Shown here piece by piece: positions 13,754-17,525 of a DNA stretch of 64,000 bases (position 1 is its first letter; every line of letters begins with the position of its first letter). Source of the DNA: Micromonospora sp. NBC_01796 (GTDB taxonomy: Bacteria > Actinomycetota > Actinomycetes > Mycobacteriales > Micromonosporaceae); contig NZ_CP109078.1 of NCBI RefSeq assembly GCF_035917455.1, positions 5,440,001-5,504,000 on the forward strand. The letters run 5' to 3'. The translations under genes and the position numbers were made by a program. The notes below the pieces were generated by a model. That model saw only the letters and a program-made list of their open reading frames with translations. It ran no database searches and was not told the DNA's origin.

Positions 13754-14221
13754 CTACCCGAGCCCGCCGCGCAGAACCCGTACCCGGCCCGCGACCCGGA
13801 TCACCAGGGTGCGACCGGCCCGACCGAGCGCCGGAGCCCGCCGCGGCCGGGGGTTGGAGTCGCCGTCGTAGCGCCAGGTGGCCTCCCGTACGGCCAGCTC
13901 CTCGGCCGCCGGCTCCGGCAGCCGACCACCGGTCGCCAACTCCCGGGCCAGGTCCCAGCCGTCGCGCAGCGAGCCGTTGGTCGGTCGGGTGCCGGCGAAC
14001 GTCCGGAACGTGGGCAGCCAGTCGGCGCCCAGCCCGGCGGCGAGCATCGGCCAGTGCCGGCCGACGTCACCAGCCCGCTTGCGCAGCAGGGCGTCGCGGG
14101 CCGCCCCGACCAGCCGGGTGTCGAAGCCAGTGGGCACCGGCGCACCGGACACCAGGGCCGCGACCAGCTCCGCCTGTCGGGCGGCGAGCCGGTCGCGGCC
14201 GGGGCGCTCGACCTCGCTCAC
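13754..14221 (-). CDS. Small partner protein of DUF692 enzyme (SCO6045-like C-terminal domain)
   Basis: A 155-residue soluble, helical protein. Its GTG overlaps the TGA of the DUF692 gene (GTGA at 14218-14221), so the two are translationally coupled. Conserved-looking segments are PTGFDTRLVGAARDALLRKR, WPMLAAGLG and RPTNGSLRDGWDLARELA; the C-terminus holds a basic WRYDGDSNPRPRRAP region. DUF692 (MNIO) enzymes generally work with a small partner that presents the peptide substrate (MbnC or DUF2063-like); position, size and coupling suggest the same role here. I recall similar sequences as the C-terminal part of Streptomyces SCO6045 but could not check. Alternative: an independent unknown protein. 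Confidence 0.65.
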   Translation of the reverse strand: MSEVERPGRDRLAARQAELVAALVSGAPVPTGFDTRLVGAARDALLRKRAGDVGRHWPMLAAGLGADWLPTFRTFAGTRPTNGSLRDGWDLARELATGGRLPEPAAEELAVREATWRYDGDSNPRPRRAPALGRAGRTLVIRVAGRVRVLRGGLG

Positions 14222-15039
14222 GTGATCGCCGGGTAACCGGCGGCGGCGGCGATCGCGTCGAGTTCGTCGCGCAGTGCCCGCGCCGGTGGGTAGCGCCCGT
14301 CCCGTTCGAGCAGCAGCGCCGGTGGCCGGTGCCGGGCGCAGAGCTCGCCGACCAGTTCGAGTACGGGCGCGGGGGTCGGATCGGTGTGCGTGTCGTGGTA
14401 GATCCCGTCGTGCTCGGCGCCCCCGGCGACGTGCACGTACGCGACCCGGTCCAGCGGCAGCCGGTCGAGCAGGTCGACCGGATCGGTGCCCCGGTTGCGT
14501 GCGTTGCCGTACACGTTGGCGATGTCGAGCAGGAGCAACGCCCCGGTCCGGTCGAGGATCTCGGTGAGGAACTCCGCCTCGCCCAGCTCGTCGTCCGGCC
14601 AGTCGAAGAGCGCGGCGATCGGCTCCAGCGCCAGTGGGACCGGCAACTCCGCCTGGGTCCGGGTGACGTTCTCCACCAGCGCGTCGACCGCGTCGCGGGT
14701 ACGCGGCACCGGCAGCAGGTGACCGGCCTCGACCCCGCCGGCCCGGACGAACGCGATGTGCTCGCTGACCAGCGGGGCGTCCAGCAGTTCGGCGACTCGG
14801 GCCAGGTGGGTGACCCGGTCCGGCTCGACCGGCTCGGCGCCGCCGAGCGACAGCCGCACCCCGTGCGGTACGACCACGGTCCCGCGCTCGCGCAGGGCGG
14901 TCAGTGCCGCCGGTGGTGGCCCACCGGCGGCGACGCTCTCGGCGACCACCTCGACGAAACGGAGTCCGGGCAGTTCGGCGACAAAACCGGAGATCTCCGG
15001 TCGCCACCCGATCCCGACCCCGTACGCGGGCAGGTTCAT
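14218..15039 (-). CDS. DUF692 family multinuclear iron-dependent oxidase (MNIO)
   Basis: A 273-residue TIM-barrel protein of the DUF692/UPF0276 family, to which methanobactin MbnB, TglH and the bufferin-modifying enzymes belong. Likely metal ligands: His59 in VPHGVRLSLGG, SEH at 92-94, Glu139 in LALEP, Asp172 and Asn175/179 in LLDIANVYGNA, His203 in YVHVAGG, His215/218 in HDTHTD, and Glu245 in LLERDG. Characterised members use two or three iron ions to oxidise cysteine residues of peptides. Its ATG overlaps the TGA of a membrane-protein gene ending in a Cys/Gly tail (ATGA, 15036-15039), and its own TGA overlaps the GTG of a small partner gene. These couplings suggest that the Cys tail is the substrate. 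Confidence 0.9.
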   Translation of the reverse strand: MNLPAYGVGIGWRPEISGFVAELPGLRFVEVVAESVAAGGPPPAALTALRERGTVVVPHGVRLSLGGAEPVEPDRVTHLARVAELLDAPLVSEHIAFVRAGGVEAGHLLPVPRTRDAVDALVENVTRTQAELPVPLALEPIAALFDWPDDELGEAEFLTEILDRTGALLLLDIANVYGNARNRGTDPVDLLDRLPLDRVAYVHVAGGAEHDGIYHDTHTDPTPAPVLELVGELCARHRPPALLLERDGRYPPARALRDELDAIAAAAGYPAIT

Positions 15040-15998
15040 CCGCCGCAGCCCCCGCCTCCGCCGCAGCCTCCGCCACCTCCGCAGCTGCTACCGCCACCGC
15101 CGTCACCGCTGCTGCTACCCCCGTCGCCGGAGTAGCCGCTGCCGCCGCTGCCGCTGGCAAGGTTGCGCTGGACCTCCGCCTCGGCGGCGAAGCTCGGGTC
15201 GAGGGCGTAGAACGCGGCACCGCCGAACAGCGCCACACCCATGGCGGCACTGGTCGAGCCGTAGGTGTCGTACGACGGGTGGGAGCTGGGGGACAGGTGC
15301 TCGTGCTGCCCCTTCATCGTCCGTACGGCCCGGCGGGCGGCGCGGGTCTGCCTCGGCACCGAGCGGAGCAGGATCAGGGTGGTCAGCGCGAGTGCGACGA
15401 GCACGATGAGCAGGAAGATCACCGGCTTGCCTCCGGTGACCCCGGCGATGAACCGGACCACCCCGACCGCCAGCAGGCCGAGCAGTAGCAGCGGGAAGAG
15501 ACGTGCCGCCCGGCGCTGTTCCGTGGTCGGTGCGAGTCCGGTGTGTTCGAGCTGTCGCCGGATGCCGTGCAGGGCGGCCCGTACCCGATCGTCGGTGCCC
15601 AGGTCGCGGGGCCGGATCCGTCGCCCGGCCGCGTTGTAGACGGCCTGGTCGAGCTGGGTGGCGCCGGTCGGCATCGGACCGGCGGTGGTGAGGGCGCGGC
15701 CCTGGGCGGTGGTGTCGACCGAGCCGGCGGCTCGCAGGCCGCCGAGCGAGGCGTACACGGCGAGCCGTTCCCCGCCGTTGAGGTAGGCGGCCTGTTCCGG
15801 GATCAGTTGGCTCGTCGCCAGTTCCTGCCGGCCGGCGAAGACGATGGAGCGTTGTACGACGGCAGCGAGGATCAACAGGCCGGCTGCGGCCACGTACAGG
15901 AACAGGAAGGTGGGCCCGGAGATGCCCCAGGTGTCCGCCGGGGCCGCGGCGTCGATCAGCATGGCGTCATTGTGGAACAGGGCCGCCACTGCCGCCAC
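15036..15998 (-). CDS. TIGR04222-type membrane protein with Cys/Gly C-terminal tail
   Basis: A 320-residue membrane protein: a first hydrophobic segment at about 25-45, a soluble stretch carrying EQAAYLNGGERLAVYASLGGLRAAG, two adjacent transmembrane segments at about 170-215, then a low-complexity tail. The last 17 residues hold three cysteines spaced by glycines (SSCGGGGGCGGGGGCGG). This architecture matches TIGR04222, a family I recall as defined by a membrane region before a Gly/Cys/Ser tail and by linkage to DUF692 genes. The GTG at 15998 lies six bases after the preceding paralogue; an ATG at 15962 is the alternative start. The stop codon lies inside the ATGA that starts the DUF692 gene. 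Candidate substrate of the enzyme. Confidence 0.8.
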   Translation of the reverse strand: MAAVAALFHNDAMLIDAAAPADTWGISGPTFLFLYVAAAGLLILAAVVQRSIVFAGRQELATSQLIPEQAAYLNGGERLAVYASLGGLRAAGSVDTTAQGRALTTAGPMPTGATQLDQAVYNAAGRRIRPRDLGTDDRVRAALHGIRRQLEHTGLAPTTEQRRAARLFPLLLLGLLAVGVVRFIAGVTGGKPVIFLLIVLVALALTTLILLRSVPRQTRAARRAVRTMKGQHEHLSPSSHPSYDTYGSTSAAMGVALFGGAAFYALDPSFAAEAEVQRNLASGSGGSGYSGDGGSSSGDGGGGSSCGGGGGCGGGGGCGG

Positions 15999-16004
15999 AG
16001 CCGT

Positions 16005-16892
16005 TCAGCCGCCGCCGCTCCCACATCCACCATCGGACCCGGAGCCACCGGATCCGTAGTCGGGGGATCCGCCGCCGTCGCTGCCGATGGCACCGCTCGG
16101 TGCGTGGGGTGTCGAACCGGCGGACGCCGAGCCGTGCTCGTCCTGCGCCTCCTGCGCCATCTCCGGGTCCAGAGTGGACATGACCGACATGCCGAACAGT
16201 GCGACGGTCATCGCGACCGTGTGGGTGTCCTGCCCGCCGAGGTCCGGGTTCGCCGACGTGACGAGGTGCCGGTGGCCGCGCCGGAGCTGGACGAGCATGG
16301 CCTCGGCGGCGCGGCTGCGGCGCGGGATCTGGGAGACCAGCAGCAGGTACGCGAGCATGACCAGGAGGAGCGCCACCCAGAGATGGTCGGCCGGTACGTC
16401 CCGGACGAGCCCGATGGCGAGCCGGGCGACGCCGAGGGCGAGCAGCCCGAGCAGGAGCCACGAGCCCCGGCGGGCGGATTGTCGCACGTCGCGGCCGAGC
16501 AGCAGGTTGGCCTGCTCCAGGCTGCGTTTCACCTCGGCGACGGCGGCCAGCACCTCCGGATCGGCCCGCAGCCACTGCTGGGACAACCCGCTCCCGGCCG
16601 CCGCGTAGACCGCCCGGTCCAGCCGGCTCGCGTCGGGCGGGAGGGGGCCGGTGACGGTCAGCCGTCGGTCCGTGGTCACGCCGACGGCGTCCAACCGGCG
16701 CAGCGCGGCCAGGGAGGAGTAGACCGTCAGCCGTTCCCCGCTGTCGAGGTAGGCGGCCTGGGCCGGGGTGATGTCGGTCAGCCGTAGGCCGGGAGGCTGG
16801 CTGAGGGCCCGGCGCCGGTGCAGCAGCGCGCCGACGAGGATGATCGCCGCCGCGGCGAGGTAGTACCAGGTGAAGAGGGGGACTTGCCACAT
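16005..16892 (-). CDS. TIGR04222-type membrane protein, second paralogue with Gly-rich tail
   Basis: A 295-residue paralogue of the neighbouring membrane protein. An N-terminal transmembrane segment (about 7-25) is followed by ITPAQAAYLDSGERLTVYSSLAALRR, which matches the same position of the neighbour, then two transmembrane segments around 140-185 and a Ser/Gly/Asp-rich tail ending GSDGGCGSGGG with one Cys. The two copies are well diverged, so the duplication is old. GAGGAG ten bases before the ATG at 16892 is a fair ribosome site. The gene starts 39 bases after the TetR gene and is followed within six bases by the paralogue. Confidence 0.8.
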   Translation of the reverse strand: MWQVPLFTWYYLAAAAIILVGALLHRRRALSQPPGLRLTDITPAQAAYLDSGERLTVYSSLAALRRLDAVGVTTDRRLTVTGPLPPDASRLDRAVYAAAGSGLSQQWLRADPEVLAAVAEVKRSLEQANLLLGRDVRQSARRGSWLLLGLLALGVARLAIGLVRDVPADHLWVALLLVMLAYLLLVSQIPRRSRAAEAMLVQLRRGHRHLVTSANPDLGGQDTHTVAMTVALFGMSVMSTLDPEMAQEAQDEHGSASAGSTPHAPSGAIGSDGGGSPDYGSGGSGSDGGCGSGGG

Positions 16893-16931: not shown

Positions 16932-17525
16932 TCAGTGTGCGCCTCCGCCGCCCGCTGGTCGACGTACCGCCTCCTCGACGAGGTCGAGGACCGGGCCGAG
17001 GTCGCCGGCGGGGCGTCCCATGGCCAGGTGCAGCACCAGCCCGTCGTAGGCGAGTTCGAGGAACTGGGCCAGGACGTCGATCGGTACGTCGTCGCGCAGC
17101 ACCCCGGCGTCGCGCTGCCGGATCAGCCGGTCCCGGGTGGCTCCGGCGATCGCCGCCGAGCGTTCGGCCCACCGCTTGGCGAACTCGGGGTCGGTACGCA
17201 GCCGCCGGGACACCTCCAGTTGGCTGCCGAGCCAGCCGGCGGTCTCCGGGGAGCTGGCGCTGGTGAGCAGGTCCCGCATCACCTGGACCAGGCCGTTGCG
17301 GGCGACGGTGGAGACCATCGCCACCGCGTCGTCCTCGGCGACGGCGAGGAAGAGGGAGTCCTTGTCCCGGAAGTGGTGGAAGATCGCGCCGCGGGAGAGG
17401 CCGGTCGCTTCTTCCAGCCGGCGGACTGTGGCACCCTCGTATCCGTACCGGGCGAAACAGGCCCGCGCCGCCGCGAGGATCTCGTGGCGGCGAGCGTCGA
17501 GCTGGTCCTGGCTCACTCTGGGCAC
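16932..17525 (-). CDS. TetR family regulator, AcnR/Rv1474c-like
   Basis: A 197-residue TetR repressor. The DNA-binding domain occupies residues about 12-58: RRHEILAAARACFARYGYEG, then ATVRRLEEATGLSRGAIFHHFRDKDSLF. This is very close to AcnR of Corynebacterium and Rv1474c of Mycobacterium, which sit next to aconitase and repress it; the helical ligand domain follows. Here aconitase is about 12 kb away, but both promoters carry the same 20-bp operator (17558-17577 and 32153-32172). Translation starts with GTG at 17525. The gene heads a one-strand run into the DUF692 cassette, so autoregulation may also set expression of that cassette. Confidence 0.88.
   Translation of the reverse strand: MPRVSQDQLDARRHEILAAARACFARYGYEGATVRRLEEATGLSRGAIFHHFRDKDSLFLAVAEDDAVAMVSTVARNGLVQVMRDLLTSASSPETAGWLGSQLEVSRRLRTDPEFAKRWAERSAAIAGATRDRLIRQRDAGVLRDDVPIDVLAQFLELAYDGLVLHLAMGRPAGDLGPVLDLVEEAVRRPAGGGGAH

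Follow-up and report, generated by a model that had tools for sequence, protein, structure and literature searches.

We analyzed a 64,000-nucleotide stretch of the Micromonospora sp. NBC_01796 genome (RefSeq assembly GCF_035917455.1, contig NZ_CP109078.1, positions 5,440,001 to 5,504,000; hereafter the window), which carries a cassette of two TIGR04222 membrane proteins (A and B), an MNIO enzyme (DUF692, PF05114) and a small partner protein. The C-terminal tails of such membrane proteins are probable MNIO substrates, because multi-Cys tails and the MNIO gene go together across genera and because they share a regular design with a near-fixed Cys-Gly-Gly end. It is probable, judging from these patterns, that the tail Cys are modified by the MNIO of the cassette; that metal binding is the purpose of the modified tails is a proposition we hold in about even balance. 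The initial annotation of the window had named the tail Cys as MNIO substrates, which our survey bears out as probable. It had also called the arrangement undescribed, and this part is rejected, since Antoine et al. (2025, PMC12452194) have proposed MNIO substrates among the TIGR04222 membrane proteins, namely subsets that bear C-terminal Ser/Gly/Cys tails. The membrane-displayed metal-binding or redox surface of the initial annotation is putative in its chemistry and plausible in its topology. The cassette is real and well conserved, and it adds one member and better statistical support to this published hypothesis.

We sought PF05114 in 106 TIGR04222-bearing genomes, which were selected and not random, and found it in 21 of 26 and 61 of 80 genomes in the two batches. 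After three genomes without a readable tail were dropped, 103 remained. At least three Cys in the last 40 residues were found in 68 of the 80 MNIO-positive genomes but in none of the 23 MNIO-negative ones (Fisher's test, 1.6e-14, a value that ignores kinship), so that all 68 genomes with such tails encode an MNIO. At lower thresholds, the corresponding counts were 70 of 80 versus 4 of 23 (at least two Cys) and 74 of 80 versus 7 of 23 (at least one Cys). PMC12452194 reports a looser association between TIGR04222 and MNIO, with 490 of 1372 TIGR04222 genomes lacking MNIO and more than one-quarter of the proteins lacking a C-proximal Cys, whereas the Actinomycetota genomes examined here are split by tail type (68 of 68 genomes with at least three tail Cys being MNIO-positive).

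The association was also evident at the level of individual loci. TIGR04222 matches above the family cut-off were present in at least 16 of 396 genomes of the phylum, at least 119 of 298 of the order, and at least 175 of 250 of the family. The survey of tails covered 161 loci (160 stretches plus the window), picked by hand among the matches listed, with 1–13 genomes per genus and genus labels assigned by hand from the search outputs. These loci, 132 of which contained an MNIO, held 210 TIGR04222 frames: 169 with an MNIO downstream, 8 with an MNIO upstream, 29 with none nearby, and 4 that were dropped (one open at an end, three with a short flank). A same-strand MNIO no more than 4 kb downstream defined the MNIO-downstream class, which comprised 124 loci in 39 genera. 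The nearest TIGR04222 protein carried at least two tail Cys in 121 of these 124 loci, and any TIGR04222 protein of the locus did so in 123. Among the frames distant from an MNIO, 12 of 29 carried at least two tail Cys, and all nine genomes that contained them encode an MNIO elsewhere. These counts uphold the co-occurrence of C-terminal Cys in TIGR04222 proteins with DUF692 genes, which the initial annotation had put forward as its check. In addition, seven second paralogues in genus g2, without a neighboring MNIO, had neither Cys nor a Gly tail, and six of the seven genomes also yielded a multi-Cys paralogue next to an MNIO. All 16 loci of protein B relatives from named genomes (Paractinoplanes, Actinoplanes, Micromonospora, Winogradskya, and Plantactinospora, all of which we take to be Micromonosporaceae) contained the cassette with a Cys-Gly-Gly end, although at least one of them (L260) seems to come from the same genome as the surveyed G402. 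Because the MNIO-downstream loci of 39 genera and these 16 loci agree, the cassette is far beyond chance.

Tail design was assessed over the nearest TIGR04222 proteins of the 124 MNIO-downstream loci. The median tail contained four Cys, and Cys density was 6.6 per 100 residues in the tail compared with 0.15 in the preceding 240 residues. Gly directly followed Cys in 428 of 520 cases, and a C-terminal Cys-Gly-Gly was present in 106 of 124 proteins, including every locus of 32 of the 39 genera. Successive Cys were 4–7 residues apart in 311 of 397 intervals (130 ± 9 in shuffled tails), the commonest spacing being 6 (159 of 397), and the last 40 residues of all 124 proteins pooled held 29 Lys plus Arg. 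One could argue that the Cys arose by neutral drift, the genome being GC-rich and the Gly/Ser tail of low complexity, given that GGC and AGC are the commonest tail codons and the Cys codon TGC lies one base from either. However, close pairs were nearly absent (spacing of 2 or less: 1 observed, 137 in shuffles) and Cys at position −3 was near-fixed (107 of 124, compared with about 23 in shuffles). TGC also outnumbered the other one-step neighbors of GGC (435 versus GAC 141, GCC 88, CGC 15, and GTC 14), although those codons alter tail chemistry more. We therefore disfavor drift on the spacing and position of the Cys and regard it as extremely improbable. In six loci (L151, L157, L167, L171, L178, and L180), three or four TIGR04222 genes precede a single MNIO. 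Their tails hold as many as 11 Cys, some of them within Ser runs; in these arrays, the MNIO-adjacent protein ends in -GGD or -GGS instead of -CGG. Several members of family f89 (L234, L235, L237–L241, L244–L248, and L250), distant TIGR04222 relatives from genomes without a PF05114 match, retain Gly-rich ends with zero or two Cys, which suggests that presence of the Gly tail may not depend on Cys.

Several observations weigh against modification of the tail Cys by the MNIO. Absence of conserved Cys from the tails where a DUF692 gene is present, on which the initial annotation had staked its idea, was rare where TIGR04222 precedes MNIO (3 of 124 loci) and the rule in genus g8 (L219–L226), where the order is reversed: MNIO and partner come first, and the TIGR04222 proteins that follow have Cys-free tails in six of eight loci and eight Cys in the other two. 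Nothing convincing as a small Cys-rich precursor was found beside these eight MNIOs when short frames in the eight loci were inspected by eye. Of the three MNIO-downstream loci with fewer than two Cys in the nearest TIGR04222 protein, L076 (one Cys) and L218 (none) encode another TIGR04222 protein with more Cys. The third, L174 (G836:C1:396224-396998; one Cys), has an MNIO match divided among three frames, whereas its genus-mate L163 has four Cys in the corresponding tail; Cys loss following enzyme loss is possible, as is a sequencing fault.

Twelve MNIO-positive genomes fell below three tail Cys. Six belong to genus g8, one of them with a one-Cys tail at another place. Two (G413 and G815) have two Cys, and G013 has one, within a Cys-Gly-Gly end beside its MNIO. 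In G509 the MNIO lies at a contig start, with any preceding TIGR04222 gene out of view, and G836 is the genome with the broken MNIO. G468 is the clearest exception: its locus (L243) holds a complete TIGR04222–MNIO–partner cassette, yet the tail is acidic and Gly-poor, with one Cys and no Gly run. Conversely, four MNIO-negative genomes, all with low-scoring relatives of family f89, have two Cys in Gly-rich tails. Furthermore, genomes that are related do not count as independent observations, their selection was made by hand, and the contrast lies partly between subfamilies. Finally, should the tail lie outside the membrane, a cytosolic enzyme must act on it before it crosses the membrane.

One alternative is that the tail Cys stay free thiols, which bind iron, copper or zinc or form disulfides, while the MNIO has its substrate elsewhere and the co-occurrence reflects a shared role in metal stress. 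Unmodified Cys-Gly-Gly arrays could bind soft metals, the four MNIO-negative f89 genomes have two Cys in their Gly tails, and modification is so far unobserved. Nevertheless, the absence of tails with at least three Cys from the 23 MNIO-negative genomes and the near-universal partner gene argue against free thiols, and we regard this alternative as unlikely, although another Cys-rich precursor is conceivable, the inspection of short frames having covered the eight g8 loci.

The window cassette is on the minus strand (16892–13754) and is transcribed in the order A, B, MNIO, partner (Table 1). The layout described in the initial annotation, including the two Gly-rich tails, the gene overlaps and the family calls for the membrane proteins and the enzyme, was confirmed throughout. 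Genes A and B are separated by six bases if protein B begins at GTG, B and MNIO overlap by ATGA (15039–15036), and MNIO and partner overlap by GTGA (14221–14218). Both membrane proteins exceed the NCBIfam TIGR04222 cut-off of 43 bits. Protein B ends in ...SSCGGGGGCGGGGGCGG, with three Cys (residues 306, 312, and 318) in its final 17 residues; it conforms to the tail design in its spacing of 6 and in its C-terminal Cys-Gly-Gly, to which residue 318 belongs. Protein A ends in ...GSDGGCGSGGG and departs from the design, with a single Cys (residue 290) and no Cys-Gly-Gly end. Among the 45 upstream paralogues, 18 end in Cys-Gly-Gly and 32 carry at least two tail Cys, which places protein A on the poor side. 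Both B and A combine Cys in a C-terminal Gly/Ser tail with an MNIO in the genome, as expected of the MNIO-substrate subset of TIGR04222 proteins, and B is likely the main substrate. In the genome (8.56 Mb, one contig), no TIGR04222 gene other than A and B was found (E up to 0.001), and a single MNIO was found, that of the cassette (E up to 1e-8).

Table 1. Coordinates of the cassette, the protein B tail and the adjoining regulator within the window
Feature	Position	Strand	Length and basis
TIGR04222 membrane protein A (upstream paralogue)	16005..16892	-	295 aa; NCBIfam TIGR04222, 115.9 bits
TIGR04222 membrane protein B (adjoins MNIO)	15036..15998	-	320 aa from GTG; NCBIfam TIGR04222, 142.9 bits
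Gly/Ser/Cys tail of protein B, disordered, residues 284-320	15039..15149	-	Sequence; AlphaFold2 (AF2) predicted local distance difference test (pLDDT); 124-locus tail statistics
MNIO (DUF692, PF05114) enzyme	14218..15039	-	273 aa; Pfam, E 1.1e-79
MNIO partner protein, PME-type 2-like	13754..14221	-	155 aa; homologues downstream of MNIOs; AF2 pLDDT 93
TetR-type regulator, directly upstream of the operon	16932..17525	-	TetR-type NCBIfam matches, all below cut-off

The enzyme matches PF05114 with 267.8 bits (cut-off 25), over residues 7–266 of 273 and profile positions 1–261 of 263. Nine residues (H59, H94, E139, D172, N175, H203, D216, H218, and E245) were identical in all 130 full-length MNIO rows including that of the window, and they align with identical residues in TglH (phmmer alignment), which matches the window MNIO over nearly its full length (E 8e-28). 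We take these His, Asp, Glu and Asn residues to be metal ligands, and the protein is probably an iron enzyme with oxidative chemistry. Its closest NCBIfam profile is NF050167 (MNIO_BufB), at 186.9 bits; the MbnB profile gave 25.7 bits (cut-off 325). Membership in the bufferin systems was rejected, as the BufB score lies under the equivalog cut-off of 310 and the partner has no DUF2063 match. Another possibility is that a different residue (e.g., Gly, Ser or Asp), in the tail or elsewhere in the membrane protein, is the one modified by the MNIO, with Cys serving for recognition only. The targets of BufB, the nearest profile neighbor, are Cys, and it is Cys whose occurrence parallels that of the enzyme, which makes modification of a different residue quite improbable.

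By domain coordinates, a partner homologue was encoded downstream of the MNIO in 130 of 132 MNIO loci and in 122 of the 124 loci of the MNIO-downstream class. The two loci missing it have a partner match 1.75 kb further downstream (L142) and a short match directly after the MNIO (L200). PMC12452194 names PME-type 2 partners and places them in at least 10% of the clusters of a wider set, a share that the present loci exceed. By definition, such partners are encoded just after the MNIO, lack the DUF2063 signature and are structurally related to NGO1945/TglI. The window partner is encoded directly after the MNIO and had no match in Pfam (E up to 1) or NCBIfam, including PF09836 (DUF2063), which marks PME-type 1 partners. 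In the alignment of its homologues (A2; 73 of 81 references plus P0001), DUF2063 was touched by 7 of 74 proteins at E up to 0.1 (best E 2.4e-4); across the phylum, a threshold of E up to 1e-6 gave DUF2063 in 1 of 296 genomes. The AF2 model has five helices followed by three strands, a fold that resembles the description of PME-type 2 in PMC12452194. A Foldseek search with this model gave no significant match: TglI (8hi7_A) was a weak hit at rank 44 (E 3.7), and the viral integrases that ranked highest, with a TM-score of about 0.2 or less, were dismissed as noise. Used as a profile against the Protein Data Bank, the partner alignment returned nothing better than E 0.21 and recovered neither NGO1945 nor TglI. 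Taken together, a tie to the known MNIO partners is likely.

The AF2 model of protein B (pLDDT 85) contains helices at residues 28–53, 167–188, and 194–212, a fourth hydrophobic stretch broken into 248–258 and 260–266, and a disordered tail, with pLDDT under 50 across residues 284–313 and 315–320; a Foldseek search with this model gave no match. Over the 72 rows of alignment A1 (71 of 75 references plus the window protein), mean net charge was +5.6 in the domain at 51–166 and +4.7 after helix three, but turned negative beyond the fourth stretch (−1.7) and in the tail (−1.2). On the scale used (hydrophobicity and insertion), helices one to three are more hydrophobic than the fourth stretch. By the positive-inside rule, these charges fit an N-out/C-out arrangement with four spans, and it is plausible that the main domain is cytosolic and that the tail lies outside if the fourth stretch spans the membrane. 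Given the weak hydrophobicity of this stretch and its break in the model, a tail on the inside is also possible. PMC12452194 ascribes large periplasmic domains to TIGR04222 proteins and predicts that the tails face the periplasm; our charges fit a cytosolic main domain better than a periplasmic one.

What the sequence establishes is the genes, the tails, the conserved enzyme residues, the partner gene and their co-occurrence. On this basis, we propose that the operon would yield membrane proteins whose disordered C-terminal Gly/Ser tails bear a spaced Cys array. The partner, by docking, may deliver the tail to a cytosolic MNIO, which would oxidize the Cys of the tail, the majority of which precede a Gly; the products would be thiooxazole- or oxazolone/thioamide-like groups of the kind found in bufferins or methanobactin. 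The modified tail would remain fixed to the membrane as the tethered equivalent of a bufferin and bind a soft metal, with copper the most likely one. More tentatively, and with somewhat less than even confidence, we suggest a membrane-tethered metallophore, in which the run of Cys (spacing mostly 4–7, Cys-Gly-Gly end) would make a polyvalent metal-binding brush borne by a multi-span membrane protein; the tail would cross without a signal peptide, so the enzyme would act before or during membrane insertion.

Among the neighboring genes, a same-strand upstream TetR-type homologue was present in 68 of the 124 MNIO-downstream loci, in 17 genera, all in the family of the window, and it is possibly co-transcribed with the operon. 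Further upstream on the same strand, 18 loci carry an aconitase-like gene, which we presume to be aconitase. Family searches of three window neighbors (TetR-type, SDR-type, and nitrilase-type) revealed no metal-transport gene among them, and clustering of neighbors yielded no family in more than 17 of the 39 genera, the biggest clusters resembling the TetR gene and shadow frames. These results are relevant to the scenario in which a protease frees the tail to act as a peptide, with the membrane domain as its leader and export device. In favor of this scenario, the model shows a disordered tail, and the MNIO products characterized to date are mostly peptides; however, none of the three searched neighbors is a protease and no neighbor family is more widespread than stated above. 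A protease encoded elsewhere in the genome is conceivable, but we consider release very improbable.

With respect to known systems, the cassette resembles methanobactin biosynthesis, in which MbnB and MbnC, an MNIO and its partner, oxidize Cys into copper ligands, but the methanobactin precursor is a short free peptide with a leader and no membrane protein is involved. TglH and TglI of Pseudomonas syringae differ from the cassette in that their target is a Cys appended to the C-terminus of a carrier peptide. Bufferins have signal-peptide precursors and a DUF2063 (PME-type 1) partner, whereas the cassette has a multi-span membrane protein as carrier and a partner without a DUF2063 match. Bufferins share with the cassette the MNIO Pfam family and Cys-containing motifs, and PMC12452194 describes them as copper chelators. 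The systems of Antoine et al. share the protein family, the tail type, the adjoining MNIO and, probably, the PME-type 2 partner; they illustrate the tail with Micromonospora purpureochromogenes, among others, and the partner with a 158-aa protein of M. matsumotoense. PMC5183585 also mentions a TIGR04222 peptide in a 'bacteriocin' cluster. A literature search, with most subscription journals outside its scope, found no experimental test of the TIGR04222-tail hypothesis.

Most of what is known about MNIO enzymes comes from peptide natural products. The locus described here offers a compact four-gene test case, and the survey yields three predictions, namely the Cys-Gly-Gly end, the regular Cys spacing and the near-universal partner. 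If it is true that MNIOs also modify full-size membrane proteins at their ends, then many actinobacterial genera would have in post-translational Cys oxidation a general route to metal-binding cell surfaces.

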